64,000 bases of DNA, from positions 62,001 through 126,000 of the forward strand of contig JAAZNM010000007.1 of assembly GCA_012798265.1 (NCBI GenBank). The letters run 5' to 3'. The position numbers and the translations under genes are program-made. Shown here piece by piece: positions 5,570 through 47,850 of the stretch (positions are counted from its first letter, which is position 1; each line of letters begins with the position of its first letter). Source of the DNA: Candidatus Roizmanbacteria bacterium (GTDB taxonomy: Bacteria > Patescibacteriota > Microgenomatia > UBA1406 > GWC2-37-13). The notes under the pieces were generated by a model. That model was not told where the DNA came from and made no database searches. It saw only the letters and a program-made list of their open reading frames with translations.

Positions 5570-8293
5570 GGCCAACTGCGGATAGTGACATTTCTTCCAT
5601 TTTTTTCCGGAACCGCACCAACACGGATCGTTGCGACCCAGCTTATTTCTCGGGGAAGAAGTGTCTGATGACGTCGTAAATTGATTTGGAGAAGGGGATT
5701 GTTTTTTGTCATGAAAAGGATCGATTGAACTGGCTGATTTGTAGACGACTGGTGATTGGATTTTTTTTTCTTCAATCGTTCCGGGACTCTCCTCAACATT
5801 GATTTTCATGATTCTCCGAGTAATCTCGAAATCTATATCGGAAAGAAGGTTTTCAAACATGGAAAAAGCCTCATTTTTGTACTCGACCAAAGGATCGAGT
5901 TGAGCGTAACCCCTTAGATTTATTCCCTCCCGTAGATTTTCTATAGCCGTCAGATGATCGGTCCAGTATTTATCAAAAGTGGCAAGAAAAAGCATTTTGA
6001 CGACCTCTGACCAAAGATTCTTGCCCAGTTTTTTTTCCTTTTTAAGATACTGTTCCTCCAACTCTGACTGGAGAAAGTTATTGAGACCGATAAGGTCGCC
6101 TCTTTCCCAGTATTTTTTTGCAGAATTTTGGTCAACCGGCAAGATCAGATTGATCTCTTGGGCAAACTTTGACCAGTCCTCCTCTTTTTTCTCCTGATCA
6201 ACAAGCAGAAAAGAGTTGGACAGACTGGAAAACTCTTCCTTAAACATTTCAAAGATCATACCTCTGAATTCTTCTCCGTCACGACTGCCAAGAGCCAGTA
6301 TTTTTCGTCTCCGGCCATAGACAATCTCTCTTTGCCTGTTTAGAACATCGTCAAAATCCACCAAATGTTTGCGTATATCAAAGTTGAAACCTTCAACCTT
6401 AACCTGAGCCTGCTCTATCGCCCGAGATACCATTCCATGACTGATTGGCTGATCTTCGGGAAAGTTCAGGAAGTTCATCATCTTTGTGATCTGGTCACCC
6501 CCGAATATGCGCATCAAATCATCCTCTAGAGAAACGAAAAAACGCGTCTCACCCGGATCGCCCTGTCTGCCTGCCCGACCACGGAGCTGATTGTCTATCC
6601 GGCGGGATTCGTGCCTTTCCGTTCCGATTACGTATAACCCTCCAAGTTTAACCACTTCGTCATGCTCTTTTTGCCATTTTTCCTTTTCTTTTTTGTATTC
6701 AGTCTCTTTATTGCCAAGAAGATAACGATTGGGAGGAGCACCGCCTAAAATAATATCGACTCCCCGACCGGCCATATTGGTCGCCACTGTCACCGCTCCT
6801 TTTTTACCCGCCTGGGCCAGTATCATCGCTTCCCGCTCATGTTGTTTTGCATTAAGAAGTTCGTGGGGAATACCTTTTTTCCTTAGAATATCCGACAATA
6901 ATTCGTTTTTTTCTATCGAAGTGGTACCGACAAGAACCGGTCGACCGTGCCGATAATTTTCGGCCACCTCGGCGGCAACGGCGTTAAATTTTGCTGTTTC
7001 TGTTTTATAGATCATATCGGGTCTGTCAGCTCTTACCATCGGTCGATTGGTAGGAGCAACCAAAACTTCGGTTTTGTATATTTTATGGAGTTCTTCGGCT
7101 TCGGTAGCCGCTGTCCCCGTCATACCAGCCAATTTTTTGTATAACCTAAAATAGTTCTGCAAGGAAACCGTCGCCAGGGTTTTTGACTCTTTTTGGATAT
7201 TGACGTTTTCTTTGGCTTCAATAGCCTGATGAATACCCTCGGAAAAACGCCGGCCGTAAAGAAGACGACCGGTGAACTCGTCAACGATAATAATCTCTCC
7301 GTCTTTGACGATATAGTCCTTATCTTTTTTAAAGAGGGTAGCCGCTTTTAAAGCCGCTTCGATATGATATAAACTATCAAAATCCTTTTCATAAATATTT
7401 TCAACTCCGATCATCGACTCGATTTTCTTGATTCCGGATTCTGTCAGATTGGCCGTTCTTGATTTTTCGTCTATGAGATAATCGCTTTTCTGGTCTAGCC
7501 GTCTGACTACGCCGGCATATTTATAGTATTTGCTGACATCCTCATCGTAAGGAGCGGAAATTATATGGGGAGTACGCGCCTCATCGATAAGAACCGAGTC
7601 GGCCTCGTCTATAACCGCGTAATAGAATCCTCTCTGGACTATTTCTTCTTGGTTTTGGGCCATATTGTCACGAAGATAATCAAAACCAAACTCGCTGTTG
7701 ATTCCGTAAGTGATATCGGCCAGATACGCCTCTCTTCTTGAGACGGGTCGAAGGTGGATCAACCGCCAATCCTGGGCTTCATTATCTTTATGATCCTGAT
7801 CGTAGATGTAAGACTGGTCGCTTATGATCGCCGAGGTTTTCAGACCTAAAAAGTTAAATACGGCTCCCATCCAACCGCAGTCACGCCTGGCCAGATAATC
7901 GTTTACCGTCACCAGATGGACTCCTTTATCGGTTAGGGCGTTTAAATAAAGAGCGGTAGTCGCCGACAAGGTTTTACCTTCGCCGGTTTTCTGTTCGATT
8001 ACTTTACCTTCGTGCAAAGCTACTCCCGCCAAAAGCTGGACGTCAAAATGCCGTTCCCCCAATACCCGACGGGCCGCCTCCCTCACTAAGGCAAAAGACC
8101 AAGGCAGTATCTCATCTAAAGTTTTTTTTTCGGACTGGATATCTTTTCTCAAACTGGCTGTTTCTTTTTTAAAGTCCGAATCCTTCAATTTACGGGCCCT
8201 ATCTTCAAGAAGATTGATCTCGTCGACCTTTTTTTTCAACCGGTTGATATGACGTTCGTTATAATCAAAAAACCTCTTGAATAGATTAAACAT
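5567..8293 (-). CDS. secA: Preprotein translocase ATPase SecA
   Basis: SecA drives post-translational export through SecYEG. In the 908 residues the order is: an N-terminal helical segment, nucleotide-binding domain 1 with Walker A (QKTGEGKT), DYLARRD and the DEAD-type VIDEADSVLIDEART, the preprotein-crosslinking domain, NBD2 with NMAGRGVDI and RGRAGRQGDPGETRFF, the helical scaffold (SWTDHL-like YWTDHLTAIENLREG), and a C-terminal SEC-C zinc motif (NDPCWCGSGKKWKKCH) that binds SecB or ribosomes. The linker before SEC-C is Ser/Pro-rich. It is the last gene of a unit with two exported proteins and nnrD (8328-10386), 34 bp after the preceding gene. SecY is encoded at 58988-60274. Confidence 0.98.
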   Translation of the reverse strand: MFNLFKRFFDYNERHINRLKKKVDEINLLEDRARKLKDSDFKKETASLRKDIQSEKKTLDEILPWSFALVREAARRVLGERHFDVQLLAGVALHEGKVIEQKTGEGKTLSATTALYLNALTDKGVHLVTVNDYLARRDCGWMGAVFNFLGLKTSAIISDQSYIYDQDHKDNEAQDWRLIHLRPVSRREAYLADITYGINSEFGFDYLRDNMAQNQEEIVQRGFYYAVIDEADSVLIDEARTPHIISAPYDEDVSKYYKYAGVVRRLDQKSDYLIDEKSRTANLTESGIKKIESMIGVENIYEKDFDSLYHIEAALKAATLFKKDKDYIVKDGEIIIVDEFTGRLLYGRRFSEGIHQAIEAKENVNIQKESKTLATVSLQNYFRLYKKLAGMTGTAATEAEELHKIYKTEVLVAPTNRPMVRADRPDMIYKTETAKFNAVAAEVAENYRHGRPVLVGTTSIEKNELLSDILRKKGIPHELLNAKQHEREAMILAQAGKKGAVTVATNMAGRGVDIILGGAPPNRYLLGNKETEYKKEKEKWQKEHDEVVKLGGLYVIGTERHESRRIDNQLRGRAGRQGDPGETRFFVSLEDDLMRIFGGDQITKMMNFLNFPEDQPISHGMVSRAIEQAQVKVEGFNFDIRKHLVDFDDVLNRQREIVYGRRRKILALGSRDGEEFRGMIFEMFKEEFSSLSNSFLLVDQEKKEEDWSKFAQEINLILPVDQNSAKKYWERGDLIGLNNFLQSELEEQYLKKEKKLGKNLWSEVVKMLFLATFDKYWTDHLTAIENLREGINLRGYAQLDPLVEYKNEAFSMFENLLSDIDFEITRRIMKINVEESPGTIEEKKIQSPVVYKSASSIDPFHDKKQSPSPNQFTTSSDTSSPRNKLGRNDPCWCGSGKKWKKCHYPQLA

Positions 8294-41105: not shown

Positions 41106-42461
41106 TTATAAATGACTTTTCAGATAGGAATCCAGTTTGTCTACGGAAACCCTTATCTGTTTCATACTATCCCTTTCCCTGACAGTCACCGTTTTCTCAT
41201 CCAGGGTTTCATAATCTATTGTAACACAAAAAGGGGTACCGATCTCATCCTGGCGTCTGTACATTTTTCCTATATTGCCGGCATCATCAAACTCAGCCGT
41301 CATCTCTTTTTTTAAGCAATGATAGATTTCGGAAGCGATTTTTTTTAGCTTCTCGTCTTTTTGCAGCGGAAAAACAGCTACCTTTACCGGAGCGAGTTTT
41401 GGATCAAGTTTAAGATATATTCGTGTTTTATCAGATACTGTCTCCTCACGATAGGCATCAAAAATTATTATTCCGGTTAAACGGGAAAGGCCGAATGTCG
41501 GCTCAATCACATGCGGAATGTATTTTTTGCGAGTCTGCGGATCGGTATAACTTAGATCAACGCCTGAATGCCGGCTGTGATTGGCTAAATCAAAGTCCGT
41601 CCGATAGGCAAGACCGAACATTTCTTTCCATCCAAAAGGGTAGTGATACTCTATGTCGACGGTTTTTTGGGAATAATGAGAACGCTCGTATTCTTCATGT
41701 TCGCGAAAGTGGAGTTTGTGACGATCCAAACCCAACGACAAGGCAAAACTCCACATGTCTTCCTGCCAGTACGAAAAAATTTCCTGCCATTTTTCCGGAA
41801 CGATAAAATATTCAAACTCCATCAGGTCAAACTCAAGAGTCCTATGGGTAAACTGCCCCATGGTAATCTCGTTTCTGAATGCTTTCCCCTGTTGGGCTAT
41901 GCCGAACGGAATTCTCACCCGCATTGTATCGATAATGTTTTTGAAGTTAACGAAAATTCCTTGAGCGATCTCTCCCCTAAGATAAACCTGTGATTTGAGT
42001 TTTTCGACAGCGCCGATATGGGTCTCAAAAAGAAGGTTGAATTTACGGACTTCGGTCAGATCGGAAGAACCGCATTTAGGACATTTAAGGTTGTTTTTTT
42101 TGATTATTTCTGTCAGTTTTTCCACGGGCAGACCCTCCACCTTCATATTTTTGAGGTTATCTTCTATCAGATGATCGGCTCTAATTCGATAACGGCAGTT
42201 TTTGCAATCGACTAAGGCATCGTTAAAAGAAGTCACATGACCAGAAGCCTGCCAAACTTTTGGGTTAAGGAATATAGAAGCGTCGATACCGACCATATCG
42301 TCCCTATCCAGAACAAAATGTTTCCACCACCGATCGCGAATATTGTTTTTCAGCAAAGTCCCGTAATGACCGAAATCCCAAGTATTGGCAAGGCCGCCGT
42401 AAATATCTGACGAAGGATAAACAAATCCTCGTCTTTTACACAGGGCGATGACTTTTTCCAT
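41106..42461 (-). CDS. glyQS: Glycyl-tRNA synthetase, single-chain (alpha2) type
   Basis: This is the class II GlyRS of the eukaryote/archaeal/Gram-positive kind, not the alpha2beta2 GlyQ/GlyS enzyme. The 451 residues contain the N-terminal signature CKRRGFVYPSSDIYGG, a zinc-type module (CPKCGSSD), motif 2 (GKAFRNEITM), the Gly-site segment (FELMEFEYF-like DLMEFEYFIVP), motif 3 (EPTFGLSRL) and the C-terminal anticodon-binding domain. A TATAAT ends 8 nt before the ATG and overlaps the recO stop, so it can be transcribed separately from the operon. Confidence 0.97.
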   Translation of the reverse strand: MEKVIALCKRRGFVYPSSDIYGGLANTWDFGHYGTLLKNNIRDRWWKHFVLDRDDMVGIDASIFLNPKVWQASGHVTSFNDALVDCKNCRYRIRADHLIEDNLKNMKVEGLPVEKLTEIIKKNNLKCPKCGSSDLTEVRKFNLLFETHIGAVEKLKSQVYLRGEIAQGIFVNFKNIIDTMRVRIPFGIAQQGKAFRNEITMGQFTHRTLEFDLMEFEYFIVPEKWQEIFSYWQEDMWSFALSLGLDRHKLHFREHEEYERSHYSQKTVDIEYHYPFGWKEMFGLAYRTDFDLANHSRHSGVDLSYTDPQTRKKYIPHVIEPTFGLSRLTGIIIFDAYREETVSDKTRIYLKLDPKLAPVKVAVFPLQKDEKLKKIASEIYHCLKKEMTAEFDDAGNIGKMYRRQDEIGTPFCVTIDYETLDEKTVTVRERDSMKQIRVSVDKLDSYLKSHL

Positions 42462-43001: not shown

Positions 43002-44072
43002 TCAGATACCCAAAAGAAACTGCTTCAGTATCTGATAATAGTCGCTTAACGATTGAATATCAACCCACTCGTCGTCTCCGTGCAGGTTGTCGCCCTTCGG
43101 ACCAAACTCAACTCCGGGACAACCAATCCGACCGTAGTGCCTAAGATCGGAGGCGCCGTTTTTTTTAACTACGTCAATCGACTTGCCTGTAATTTTTTTC
43201 GCCGCCTGCTGCAATTTGACCAAATATTGGTTTTTTTCGTCGGTAAAATGAACCGGCTCATCAAAATTTATGATTAAAAGACCTTCATTGCCGGCTATTT
43301 GCTTAAGTTTTTTTCTGATAACGTTTTTGTCCTCGGGGATATAACGAACGTCACAGCTGATCAAACATTCCTCCGGCACTTGATTGGAAGCTTTGTTGTT
43401 GGTTTTTATATCGGCAATATTGACAGTGGTTTTCCAAACTTCTTTGTCGGGAAGAGGGAAGAGTTTTTCAATCCGGTTCAATATTTTTTTCGACTTGACG
43501 ATGGCGTTTTCTCCACGCCAAAGATAAGCGCTATGGGCAGTCCTGCCTTTAACTACATAATCAACCCTCAGTATCCCTTTTGCCTGGTTGCCGATACTCA
43601 ATCCTGTTTGTTCTCCAACGATGACAAACTCACCCCTTACCCCTTTGTTTATTTGAAATCGGGTACCGTTAAATCCACCTATCTCTTCATCCATCACAAT
43701 TTGGAGAGCTACCGGATAAGGCAATTTTTTTGCCAGCTCTTTAAAAACCAGTATTTCGGCGGCGGCGGCGGCCTTCATATCAAGCGCTCCCCGGCCGTAA
43801 AGACGATTTCCTTTCTGAAAAGGTTTAAATTGACGTCTTTTTCCCGGAACTACGTCCAGATGAGCGTTCAGAATAACCTTAAATTTATTAGACCGGTTTT
43901 TATGATTATGGACTAGAAAACTTTTTACGCCGTTTTTTTCATAGTCTTCAACATAATATTCCGAAGTCTGTTTTTTCGCCAAAGTTAATATTTCGTCCAA
44001 CGCCAAATGGTTGTTGTAAACCGACTCTATCTTTAACATTTGTTCGGCCAAAGAAATAATCGCGTCTTTCAT
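43002..44072 (-). CDS. M20-family metallopeptidase (ArgE/DapE/carboxypeptidase type)
   Basis: This is a di-zinc amidohydrolase or peptidase with 356 residues. Metal ligands in order: His/Asp in LNAHLDVVPG (about 70), Asp in GRGALDMKAA (about 97), Glu-Glu in VMDEEIGGFNGT (about 130) and a final His in DNLHGDDEWVD. The lid dimerisation domain (about 170-280) is present. The substrate is unclear: acetylated amino acids, succinyl-DAP or dipeptides. It overlaps the GCS2-like gene by 4 bp, which hints that the pair makes and trims a gamma-linked or other peptide (inference). Confidence 0.92.
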   Translation of the reverse strand: MKDAIISLAEQMLKIESVYNNHLALDEILTLAKKQTSEYYVEDYEKNGVKSFLVHNHKNRSNKFKVILNAHLDVVPGKRRQFKPFQKGNRLYGRGALDMKAAAAAEILVFKELAKKLPYPVALQIVMDEEIGGFNGTRFQINKGVRGEFVIVGEQTGLSIGNQAKGILRVDYVVKGRTAHSAYLWRGENAIVKSKKILNRIEKLFPLPDKEVWKTTVNIADIKTNNKASNQVPEECLISCDVRYIPEDKNVIRKKLKQIAGNEGLLIINFDEPVHFTDEKNQYLVKLQQAAKKITGKSIDVVKKNGASDLRHYGRIGCPGVEFGPKGDNLHGDDEWVDIQSLSDYYQILKQFLLGI

Positions 44073-45859
44073 AAACTGGATAGTGTTAAATTTTTAACCT
44101 TTAATCTCAAAAAAGCCGCCGCCATATTTAGCTGATATGACTCGATTTTTGCCAATAATTCAAAGGGGGAGACCCCACAAGATAGCTCTTTTTGTATGAC
44201 CTCGCTTATCGGTCCCTGGGGATTAGCCTGGTACTCCTCCAAAGAGGCCGCCGAAGGTAGAAGCAGATTTTTAAGCCTTGAGATGGCTATTTCGCAAGGT
44301 TCTTTCAGGGCCAGATATTTTCCAGACATATAATTAAGGAACCGGATTCCCTCGAAAATCAAACCTTTGACAGGTTCGTATTGGAAACCGAATAAAGAGG
44401 CTTCCACGAGCAATTTCTTTTGGTTTTCCCAACGACTGAGGCTGGGAAATTTATTTTCAAAATAATCAACCGGGTGCTGTCCCTGCGACAAGGCCTCATA
44501 GGCGGCAATTGCCAAAACCTGGACAAAACAGTTCCTGGCCAGTTCATCGTAGAGTGATGGAGACGAGGAACAACCGGTGTACTCGACCCGGCCGGTTTGG
44601 TTTTTGGGTTCGGACGATGCCATTCTGTTTCTAACCCGACCGTGCATCACCGGAACAGTTCGTCCGTTTATTTCCGTTACGTAAGAAGCCCTATCAATCG
44701 TGTGCGTATCTCCGCCGACTACCAGACCGATAATCCTCTGATGCATTTTGTCCGGAGACATTATAAATCCTCCCGGATTGGTCGTATCCATAAGATAACG
44801 AAGAACGGAACGGTAATCACGGGGCCAATAGCTGTTTCCGTTTACCTCAACGGTCGGCGTCATCCCGAAAATAACCGGAGTCGACAGCATCAAATATTCG
44901 GCTAAAGTGGCAAGATCGCTATTTAGTATGTCGGAAACGGCAATCGCTTCCTGTTCCGGTATCCACATGGCTTCGTTACCGGTTCTCCGGTGATATAATC
45001 CCAAACTGGCGTGGGAAGCGGCCATCACCCAATAACCCATATGCCCTAGAGATTGGCGCAGTTCCCTATGGTTCCCATAACCAAAATTGGCGGCTATTTT
45101 GTCCATCAGTTGCTCGGCCAAAGGATCACTAAAACTGAAATAATCATTATATAATCTTGTTTGAATCGCTTTAACATAGGGACCAAGATCTCCCTGGTCG
45201 TTTATAAAAACCTTGTCCGGAGAACTGGTCGGCAGTACCGAAGAGTCAAAAACAAAACCGTCGGAAAATCTTTTTTTCCTTGACACGATCTGTTTTGATC
45301 TCTCTCTCAAAAACACTCTCGGATCGGCAATCGCCTCAAGCGTCTCTTCTATCATACCCAGCTGCAACTCTCCTCCCGGAATCTTCACCAAATCACCCTC
45401 AGCGTCTACATAAAAACCTTCCGGTTCACTACCGATGGCGGTCAAACCGGTAAAATTTTCGGCCAAATGTTGTAGGTCTTCTACCTGGTTTAAGGCATAT
45501 GTAACCATCTGGGCATCTTTCATGACTCTGTCGTGGTCGCAGGGTTTTTCCAGTGAAGTTTCTATATGGATATCGCATTGACAACCGCCGAAGTCAACTA
45601 CGCCGTCCACCTCTGTCTTTGGTATATGTCGAGGATGTTTGACGGCGGCGACGATCGCCCCATGACCATTACTTAACACCACTCCGCTCTCCCCAAGGTG
45701 TCCATGGATCGTCAGTTCTCCGCCGTTCATATGGGGAAATTTTTTTTCCTTAGCTTTTAGAGCATATAACAACTCGTTATCGTCAACCAAAGGATTCCCT
45801 TTGGTGGCGTATACATATTTCATTCCTTCGGATTGTCTTATGCTTATTTTTTCTCCCAT
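44069..45859 (-). CDS. Divergent GCS2-like carboxylate-amine ligase
   Basis: A 596-residue protein with no close textbook match. Reading it against YbdK/GCS2 (glutamate-cysteine ligase 2 family) gives the same motif order: IGSEPEGFYVD (usual GIELE-type metal Glu), ELQLGMIEETLEA, a middle AASHASLGLYH (usual HVHVG), a YWPRDYRSVLRYL segment and TGRVEYTGCSSSPSL (usual TVEVRVMDTP). An extra N-terminal domain of about 150 residues carries GGCQCDIHIET. It probably joins an amino acid to a carboxylate using ATP. The ATG abuts the T-run of a terminator. First structural gene of the unit with M20 peptidase, recO and glyQS. Confidence 0.58.
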   Translation of the reverse strand: MGEKISIRQSEGMKYVYATKGNPLVDDNELLYALKAKEKKFPHMNGGELTIHGHLGESGVVLSNGHGAIVAAVKHPRHIPKTEVDGVVDFGGCQCDIHIETSLEKPCDHDRVMKDAQMVTYALNQVEDLQHLAENFTGLTAIGSEPEGFYVDAEGDLVKIPGGELQLGMIEETLEAIADPRVFLRERSKQIVSRKKRFSDGFVFDSSVLPTSSPDKVFINDQGDLGPYVKAIQTRLYNDYFSFSDPLAEQLMDKIAANFGYGNHRELRQSLGHMGYWVMAASHASLGLYHRRTGNEAMWIPEQEAIAVSDILNSDLATLAEYLMLSTPVIFGMTPTVEVNGNSYWPRDYRSVLRYLMDTTNPGGFIMSPDKMHQRIIGLVVGGDTHTIDRASYVTEINGRTVPVMHGRVRNRMASSEPKNQTGRVEYTGCSSSPSLYDELARNCFVQVLAIAAYEALSQGQHPVDYFENKFPSLSRWENQKKLLVEASLFGFQYEPVKGLIFEGIRFLNYMSGKYLALKEPCEIAISRLKNLLLPSAASLEEYQANPQGPISEVIQKELSCGVSPFELLAKIESYQLNMAAAFLRLKVKNLTLSSL

Positions 45860-45883
45860 AAAAAAAACCCGCCTTTCGGCGGG
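45860..45883 (-). terminator. Strong intrinsic terminator touching the GCS2-like start codon
   Basis: On the minus strand CCCGCC, GAAA tetraloop, GGCGGG and then eight T, followed at once by the ATG. The 5' arm can instead pair with GGCGGG at 45922-45927 (an upstream copy identical to the 3' arm), so termination and antitermination structures exclude each other. Confidence 0.8.
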
Positions 45884-45911
45884 AAAGTCTGATAAAAGTT
45901 TTATACAGTCA

Positions 45912-45980
45912 TCATCTCCTCCCGCCCTTTAGGGGGTTAATAAGGAGAATACCAATGACTGATAAAACCAAGTTTTTCAT
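45912..45980 (-). CDS. Putative attenuator leader peptide (22 residues)
   Basis: The frame encodes MKNLVLSVIGILLINPLK followed by GGRR. Ten of 22 codons are Leu, Val or Ile. Its last codons (GGC GGG AGG AGA) lie on the antiterminator strand, so a ribosome finishing the peptide would block antitermination, while one stalled at the Leu/Ile/Val run would leave it free. CCCCCT in codons 15-17 can pair with the same G-run when no ribosome is present. This is the geometry of ilv/leu-type attenuators. A second mini-frame (MMTV) starts with GGGAGGAG in front of its ATG. Confidence 0.6.
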   Translation of the reverse strand: MKNLVLSVIGILLINPLKGGRR

Positions 45981-45992
45981 TATTGAGATAAT

Positions 45993-46021
45993 AATATACA
46001 ACAACTTTTTTCCTTTTTCAA
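45993..46021 (-). promoter_or_regulatory. Promoter of the attenuator leader
   Basis: On the minus strand TTGAAA, a 17-bp spacer and TATATT, located between the DUF4012 gene stop and the leader peptide. The predicted start lies about 6 nt before the leader ATG. Confidence 0.6.
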
Positions 46022-46035
46022 TATCATTTTGTTAT

Positions 46036-47850
46036 TTATAGCTCTTTGTCAACATCAAAAACGCCATCATAGACTTTTTTGCCATTAATCTCCACTTTTA
46101 ATTTTTGATCATCTGCCCCAGCCTGTTTTTGGATAAGCAACCGATCGTTTTTGCCAGACAAAGACGCCGGCAAACTATATCTGACGACTACCGTCGCCTT
46201 TCCCAGAGGATTTACCGTTAGGAAACCTTCAAAAACAGTTTTACCCAGCTCATCATAGGTCTGTACCTTTTTTTCCGACCCCTTGAACTCAAGCAGGGTC
46301 GACCCTTTGGGAACATATACCCTTAACCAGTTACGCAAGGTAGCGTTAAGGCAAAGACCGCCCCGTTCAAGATTACAGTCGGAGTGAGGATAGGGATTAC
46401 GGTAGTCTATTGTCACTTCCCTAACAACCCTGCCTCCTTCGTTCTTTGTTTGAGAAGTAATGATTTCCGAGACAAAAAGATTTGATTTGGCTCCAGCGAA
46501 ATTGACGTTATTCACATGGAGGTAGTCGCCGTCAAAGTCCCTAATTCTTCCAGCGAAGTTAAGCTTTTCCACCGATGTCTGAAGTTCTTTATCGGTAAAA
46601 TACAAAAGGATGTGTTTTTCCTGCATATTTTTGAACATCTGTTGAGCCAATGTCCCCCAATACTTGGAAGGGGAAAAACCCAGGGCCTTATAAAACAAAG
46701 CATACATAAGCTCTCCCAAAATACCTTTTCTGTTTTCCCGCAAATAAGGAGTAGGTCGGTCCACCATATCAAACAGTTTATAAAGCACCTGAGGACAATC
46801 ACAGCGCTTATCGATGGAGGCGGAAAAAACAACTCCGCCAGCCTCAGTATCGCCAAAAATCGTCAGCATATCTACCAACACCTTTGAGTCCAGCATGATT
46901 ATCCCGTCGTAATCGACTCTTGATCCGCTCTTTTTGTAAAGAGAGTTAAAAAGATCAACCGAGGTCGGCAGATCGGGAGAAAGGTTACTGTCACGGATAT
47001 TGAACTTATAAACATCCTTATGGTAGGTTAATATTTCACGGGGAGCTTCTGGATGGCTAGAGATACTATTATCAAGCGAGTATATATCTTCTGATTTTTC
47101 GATCTTCAGCTTGCCGTTTTTGACTTTAAAAACTGCGTAGGCGGTCAAAAAACCACCGGTAGCTCTTCTTTCCTTATCGTTCTGAAAGAGAAGCAAGTAG
47201 GTTTTTTCCTTATCGGTTCCGAATATCTCAGGAAGCTTTTTAACCAAAGGTTTGGCATCGACGAACAAAGAAGCCATTCCGACGAACTGTTCTTTTACGT
47301 TGATGATTTTTGATCTGACTAAGGTCGAACCGATTTTTTCCGGATAACGCTTCGGGTCTATTTTGTTTATTCTTTTTTCCGCCTCAGAGATATCCGAGGA
47401 AATTTTGTCCAAATTGCCCAGTACTTTATCAAGGGTTAAAATAGCCGTTTGCAACCTGTCTTCGGATGATCTCTCTACAAATGAAGTCTGACCTTTTTTA
47501 AAACCGATAAGGTCAGCGTAGGGGGTGATTGTCTTAACCGTTTCCTGACCGGCCGTCAACACATAACGTCCTGCCTCAACACCGTTTTTAAAATCGGCAA
47601 CGTAGGGAATGAAAGACGCCCAGTAAACAGAACCGGCTTCTTTTTCAAAGATAGCGTATTTATCGCCGAACTCCGACAGTTTATTGTTCAAAAGATCAAT
47701 ATCGTTTTTGGTAAAGGTAGTCTTTAATTCTTTGGCAGCGGCAATTAACGGATCAGCGGTTTTTTTAATCTTTTGGTAAGGAGTGTAGATAAAAAAATAG
47801 GAAAAAATTGCAAGAACAACTACAAAAAAAAATAGGATTCTTTTTTTCAT
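46036..47850 (-). CDS. DUF4012 family membrane protein
   Basis: A 604-residue protein with one N-terminal helix (ILFFFVVVLAIFSYFFIY) and a large extracytoplasmic part typical of DUF4012: YLLLFQNDKERRATGGFLTAY, DIYSLDNSISSHPEAP and a C-terminal beta domain with VTIDYRNPYPHSD and two Cys. The family is common in CPR and Actinobacteria near exopolysaccharide genes and its function is unknown. Its place at the end of the GT/manC/sugar-transferase block supports a role in surface glycan assembly. A TTTAAT ends 5 nt before its ATG. Confidence 0.85.
   Translation of the reverse strand: MKKRILFFFVVVLAIFSYFFIYTPYQKIKKTADPLIAAAKELKTTFTKNDIDLLNNKLSEFGDKYAIFEKEAGSVYWASFIPYVADFKNGVEAGRYVLTAGQETVKTITPYADLIGFKKGQTSFVERSSEDRLQTAILTLDKVLGNLDKISSDISEAEKRINKIDPKRYPEKIGSTLVRSKIINVKEQFVGMASLFVDAKPLVKKLPEIFGTDKEKTYLLLFQNDKERRATGGFLTAYAVFKVKNGKLKIEKSEDIYSLDNSISSHPEAPREILTYHKDVYKFNIRDSNLSPDLPTSVDLFNSLYKKSGSRVDYDGIIMLDSKVLVDMLTIFGDTEAGGVVFSASIDKRCDCPQVLYKLFDMVDRPTPYLRENRKGILGELMYALFYKALGFSPSKYWGTLAQQMFKNMQEKHILLYFTDKELQTSVEKLNFAGRIRDFDGDYLHVNNVNFAGAKSNLFVSEIITSQTKNEGGRVVREVTIDYRNPYPHSDCNLERGGLCLNATLRNWLRVYVPKGSTLLEFKGSEKKVQTYDELGKTVFEGFLTVNPLGKATVVVRYSLPASLSGKNDRLLIQKQAGADDQKLKVEINGKKVYDGVFDVDKEL

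Follow-up and report, generated by a model that had tools for sequence, protein, structure and literature searches.

Ribosome-mediated attenuation of transcription is classically represented by the trp, his, leu, ilv, thr and phe leaders of Proteobacteria (Rfam RF00513 Trp_leader, RF01859 Phe_leader), and T-box riboswitches likewise sense tRNA charging and control amino-acid genes by antitermination. Patescibacteria are tiny, mostly uncultured bacteria, many of them described as lacking amino-acid synthesis, and to our knowledge their gene regulation is almost unexplored. Candidate attenuators of Actinobacteria comprise trp, ilvB, leuS and cys leaders (PMC1262725). In a 2024 perspective on Patescibacteria, riboswitches appear as tools only and attenuation is unmentioned (PMC11665869). 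An earlier note on the DNA studied here had remarked that attenuation was not known to be described for CPR bacteria; in agreement with it, the open-access literature searched contained no paper that relevantly connects Patescibacteria, the candidate phyla radiation, Microgenomates or Roizmanbacteria with attenuation or leader peptides.

The leader described here is located on the minus strand of the window (i.e. the whole stretch of 64,000 nucleotides of 'Candidatus Roizmanbacteria' DNA that was analysed), between a DUF4012 gene (stop at 46036) and an ORF of 596 aa (ATG at 45859). With a probability of about 90%, we read it as a ribosome-mediated transcription attenuator that would sense charged leucine, valine and/or isoleucine tRNA, based on sequence comparison and modelled folds. 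The promoter, the ORF, the three pairings, the terminator and their conservation can be read in the sequence, and the regulatory steps are what we infer from them. The features of the leader and of the genes that follow it are:

45993-46021, minus strand: promoter with -35 box TTGAAA (46021-46016), 17-nt spacer and -10 box TATATT (45998-45993); from sequence and relatives
45912-45980, minus strand: leader peptide ORF of 22 codons, MKNLVLSVIGILLINPLKGGRR followed by a stop codon; from sequence and relatives
45942-45969, minus strand: region 1, 5' arm of the pause/anti-antiterminator hairpin, within the Leu/Val/Ile codon block; from folds and covariation
45897-45927, minus strand: region 2, G-rich 3' arm GGGCGGGAGGAGATGATGACTGTATAAAAC, partner of region 1 or region 3; from folds
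45878-45895, minus strand: region 3, terminator 5' arm CCCGCC (45883-45878) with its upstream flank, pairing with region 2 or region 4; from folds
45860-45883, minus strand: intrinsic terminator CCCGCC-GAAA-GGCGGG-TTTTTTTT, formed by regions 3:4, with T8; from sequence and folds
44069-45859, minus strand: first gene predicted to be controlled, encoding a 596-aa orphan protein; from profile searches and relatives
43002-44072, minus strand: M20 peptidase (DapE/ArgE family), overlapping the first gene by 4 nt; from PF01546 and PF07687
42471-42998, minus strand: recO, likely in the same transcription unit as the orphan gene and the M20 peptidase; from profile searches
41106-42461, minus strand: glyS, dimeric glycyl-tRNA synthetase, likely in that same transcription unit; from NCBIfam PRK04173

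The promoter is sigma-70-like, and its counterpart in relatives, at the equal position, is TTGCAAAA..TATAAT. The leader ORF, for which translation is predicted, starts about 4 nt past the predicted transcription start and is devoid of a Shine-Dalgarno sequence. Leucine, valine and isoleucine make up 10 of its 22 codons, with the main block in codons 4-6, 8, 9 and 11-14, while codons 19-20 are GGC GGG and the stop codon occupies 45914-45912. On re-reading, the letters and coordinates of the promoter, spacer, 22-codon frame, ten Leu/Val/Ile codons, GGCGGG and terminator given in the earlier note proved correct, as did its T-run placed directly before the next gene: T8 ends at 45860 and the terminator abuts the ATG at 45859. 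The main structure is a hairpin of 17 bp plus 7 bp, in which ORF positions 45969-45942 pair with the stop-codon region and the letters that follow it, to ~45897. A CCC:GGG pairing proposed in the same note exists, but it is a small inner part of this hairpin, which had been missed.

Folding of the window leader indicates that pairings 1:2, 2:3 and 3:4 are mutually exclusive. The z score of the fold is -4.15, with none of 200 shuffled sequences equally stable, and the energies are about -28 kcal/mol for 1:2, about -20.6 for 2:3 and -12.4 for the terminator hairpin. A translating ribosome was simulated by masking its footprint, without kinetics. When a ribosome-sized stretch is masked with the P site at codons 4-13, the minimum-energy fold contains the antiterminator; the terminator forms without a ribosome, and also with the P site at codon 14 through the stop. 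Terminator probability is 0.99 in the free leader, 0.11 on average over Leu/Val/Ile stalls and 0.98 at the stop codon. In these models, the order of folds is what classical attenuation needs. Switching between terminator and antiterminator by ribosome position agrees with the two alternative partners that had been assigned earlier to the terminator 5' arm.

According to the proposed mechanism, when branched-chain amino acids are plentiful, a ribosome would reach the stop codon and cover region 2, upon which regions 3 and 4 would pair and transcription would end in the T-run ahead of the ATG. Under scarcity, a ribosome stalled at codons 4-14 would mask region 1; region 2 would be freed to pair with region 3, no terminator would form, and transcription would proceed into the orphan gene and the M20 peptidase gene, probably also into recO and glyS. 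If the leader is not translated, 1:2 would form, and the terminator too. The same chassis equipped with other codon runs would control genes of amino-acid synthesis and tRNA charging across the window's family of Patescibacteria.

A DNA search through 185 related genomes disclosed leaders 68-77% identical, positioned ahead of non-homologous genes. A covariance model constructed from seven related leaders, all of the Ile/Leu/Val/Phe type, gives matches at E ≤ 0.1 in 69 of 72 genomes belonging to the window's family; pairings 1:2 and 3:4 are included in the model, and their presence in the matches is therefore partly selected. Among 144 elements inspected, 139 have a leader ORF at the corresponding place together with a terminator (129 without near copies). 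Both the fold stability of the window leader and the recurrence of the whole arrangement in related genomes speak against a chance origin. Relatives retain the leader frame together with G-rich region 2 and the terminator, also ahead of a gene whose product is 45% identical to the 596-aa protein. Loss of the leader frame or GGCGGG with the terminator kept, which the earlier note had named as evidence against attenuation, is not the pattern in these relatives. With the window leader, the candidate switches of this kind number well over a hundred, apparently tuned to different amino acids, a large family that the earlier note had not recognised.

At least two further attenuators are present in the window's own genome. 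In one of them (L162), a FYFYFY leader is followed by the operon PfkB-aroF (DAHP synthase)-aroB-aroA-aroK-aroE-aroD, with PfkB named by Pfam and the remainder by sequence inspection. The other (L161) carries HHHRR ahead of a DapF-like gene. Its HHH run (L161:2723-3174, G000:C8 about 190222-190673) forms the C-terminal end of a TrpR/YerC-like coding sequence, and this entire regulator gene may also serve as leader of the DapF-like gene that follows.

Outside the family, a search of low sensitivity throughout the phylum gave at least 6 of 380, a lower bound because nine candidates were scored per genome, and a figure not comparable with that of the family search. Clear examples are MNFVWFFSYFFFPSF ahead of a gene that by sequence resembles DAHP synthase (L145), MNKQIFVKIFNYYYSH ahead of a GCS2-family gene (L150) and MYNNNSFIIILFTNR ahead of a class III aminotransferase gene (L144). 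Another match of the phylum search, L148, lacks a leader ORF and was discarded as a false positive.

Two serial attenuators per gene, usually of the same amino-acid class, were observed in L026, L027, L034, L043, L061, L077, L089, L091, L107, L118 and L134. Leaders of L015 and L044 (both G066:C1) are 87% identical, promoters included, and stand ahead of non-homologous genes; judging by this similarity, the attenuator seems to have been copied as a module. A link to cognate tRNA genes was considered and rejected, as the tRNA genes close upstream of L111, L128, L135, L100 and L105 are non-cognate (Val, Val, Pro, Ala and Ala, respectively).

Leader codons were compared with the functions of downstream genes, determined by NCBIfam and Pfam on representatives and grouped by BLAST. 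Histidine runs are located ahead of hisS and hisG (e.g. MKITNSKDIVHHHLPNGG ahead of hisS), WWW ahead of a TrpB-like gene, TTTT ahead of thrC and TTT ahead of thrS, CC or CTCTT ahead of cysteine synthase-type genes (cysK), SSSS ahead of serB and serB-serA, and MMM ahead of SAM hydroxide adenosyltransferase. FYFYF precedes DAHP synthases, tyrS, transaldolase and PfkB kinases, and also a DeoC/FbaB-type aldolase which is by sequence 2-amino-3,7-dideoxy-heptulosonate-synthase-like. Leucine runs (LLL) precede leuA, and Ile/Val/Leu runs precede ilvE (14 cases) and ilvB. Conventional amino-acid sets served to score 14 gene families, and at this family level 3.85 cognate residues were observed per 8-residue window vs 1.46 (sd 0.25) by permutation, none of 20,000 permutations reaching the observed match; the same was true of 20,000 permutations of the sets among families. 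Since the covariance model derives from Ile/Leu/Val/Phe-type leaders, other codon classes were not selected for. Codon fit is poor in L080 ahead of leuA and in L113 ahead of argG.

Paralogous genes in one genome (L063:1494-1607 and 6933-7044) have leaders of Ile/Val/Leu and FFFF type, respectively, suggesting a changed substrate. In the same locus (L063:16586-18001), an HHH leader is followed by a DapF-like gene and then by a hisS-like gene, and the DapF-like protein may act on histidine, as a racemase or as another enzyme.

The codon runs bear directly on the possibility that the leader is a ligand-binding riboswitch or is bound by a protein, as suggested for the actinobacterial LEU element, with the ORF being incidental. 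The leader is indeed structured and ends in a terminator, and codon changes in the leader upstream of Streptomyces ilvB had no effect (PMC1262725). We nevertheless regard this explanation as improbable: elements sharing the chassis differ in their gene-matching codon runs (HHH, WWW, TTTT, SSSS, CC), a conserved core of ligand type is missing, and there is no Rfam match at the gathering score. In the Rfam scan of the window, Phe_leader scored 18.1 against a cut-off of 55 bits and Trp_leader 14 against 41 bits, none reaching the cut-off, and in a scan of 13 loci (12 related and that of the window) the only matches above cut-off were to tRNA. Neither scan returned a T-box match.

The antiterminator pairing 2:3 is outside the search model and provides an independent test of ribosome-mediated attenuation. 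Pairing of region 2 with region 3 of its own element averages -14.3 kcal/mol, vs -11.1 kcal/mol across elements (p = 5e-18, 0 of 2000 permutations). In an alignment of 61 distinct elements, both sides are changed in 26 of the 27 modelled pairs (239 cells, 0 of 500 shuffles), and the signal collapses when the partner is slid by one to three columns; this covariation is given less weight because the alignment was fitted to the structure. In the 62 elements with an assigned amino acid, masking simulations gave a terminator probability of 0.93 at the stop vs a mean of 0.49 at cognate stalls (p = 1.4e-11), a model of relief of termination at low cognate charged tRNA. Several elements depart from this behaviour; for example, L102 and L131 hold the terminator at cognate stalls, and some others form the antiterminator even without a ribosome. 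Exclusive pairings, conservation in relatives and the codon-function match over 14 gene families together back the attenuation geometry recognised in the earlier note.

Element-specific antiterminator pairing also weighs against the view that hairpin and T-run are a mere terminator of the upstream DUF4012 gene, next to a short ORF and promoter-like sequence that arose by chance. This gene ends 15 nt ahead of the -35 box, and its readthrough would meet the same terminator, but the same leader recurs ahead of unrelated genes in other contexts and its codons track downstream gene function, making this account very unlikely. Least credible is a functional small membrane peptide with regulation as a secondary matter, for although the window peptide is hydrophobic and signal-like (MKNLVLSVIGILLINP), leaders for other amino acids are not (HHH, TTTT, SSSS), and hydrophobicity follows from Leu/Val/Ile codons ahead of ilvE, ilvB and leuA.

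Leader ORFs mostly begin 6-14 nt past the -10 box, and a Shine-Dalgarno core is present in 5 of 138. Its absence was considered as a leader-specific trait and dismissed as normal for the genome, long ORFs of the window having a Shine-Dalgarno sequence in 2 of 54 cases vs 6.5% at random positions.

Among the downstream genes, profile searches confirmed M20 (PF01546, E 3e-27; PF07687, E 6e-14) and recO, both named in the earlier note. The gene it had labelled glyQS is single-chain dimeric glyS (NCBIfam PRK04173, E 1e-190). Its 'GCS2-like ligase' label for the 596-aa protein is unsupported, because Pfam searches up to E 10, PF04107 included, returned no family for the protein, nor did NCBIfam, and PDB gave no meaningful relative; profile comparison with GCS2-matching attenuated proteins gave a probability of 0.3%, and a GxExE-like motif was seen by eye alone. 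Pfam GCS2 does occur among other attenuated genes (L107, L150, L178). An AF2 model of the 596-aa protein from three sequences was too poor for a fold search (pLDDT 40). A single-protein query against contigs of related genomes gave no relative, and an alignment search found three, all in 'Candidatus Roizmanbacteria' records. The homologue in another genus (L055, 45% identical) is preceded by the Ile/Val-rich leader MNKSGFSIIVIIICRVGG, which argues that gene and sensed class have been conserved together.

The M20 peptidase has homologues near attenuated genes at over ten other loci, many of which have leaders of the phenylalanine type. Homologues of 46-51% identity (window 43002-44072, L049, L060, L070, L078, L090, L166, L173) adjoin attenuated genes with differing first enzymes. 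We infer that M20-linked loci are modules freeing or conjugating a given amino acid, induced at its shortage.

From the attenuator logic, the window operon would be expected to provide or consume branched-chain amino acids, for example by release via the M20 peptidase, and a role in such supply or use is predicted for this peptidase and the 596-aa protein. Orphan genes can be annotated directly in this way because leader codons name the amino acid, and other orphan genes are predicted to have roles concerning phenylalanine, tyrosine or histidine. The attenuator set indicates that the family can sense amino acids individually and has several synthesis pathways still under control, and points to attenuation operating in genomes with hardly any Shine-Dalgarno starts. 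More broadly, it is rather probable that the family runs much of its amino-acid economy via one modular RNA chassis, in which a swapped codon run sets the sensed amino acid, and which has been copied to new genes, orphan ligase-like enzymes with an M20 peptidase partner among them; the substrate class of unannotated genes could then be read from the codons, and these reduced cells would respond to starvation for a single amino acid.

Attenuation as a mechanism class is long known; one swappable chassis serving many amino acids in Patescibacteria appears to be undescribed in the open literature. Like classical attenuators, the present elements possess a leader ORF carrying regulatory codons, exclusive pairings among regions 1-4 and an intrinsic terminator ahead of the first gene, and they also precede aminoacyl-tRNA synthetase genes (pheST type). 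They differ from them in the host group, in the lack of Shine-Dalgarno sequences with the ORF beginning about at the transcription start, in one recognisable form of chassis serving many amino acids, sets for Ser, Cys, Met and Tyr among them, and in frequent occurrence twice in series. Unlike T-box riboswitches, which bind tRNA directly, they need a translated ORF. With the actinobacterial candidates they share runs of cognate codons ahead of biosynthesis and aminoacyl-tRNA synthetase genes, as well as complementary triples in antiterminator and terminator (PMC1262725). In Actinobacteria, cys leaders lack terminators and ilvB codons had no effect when tested (PMC1262725), whereas the present elements have all four regions and accompany a wider gene set, comprising hisS, hisG, thrC, serB, DAHP synthase, leuA, ilvE and orphan genes.
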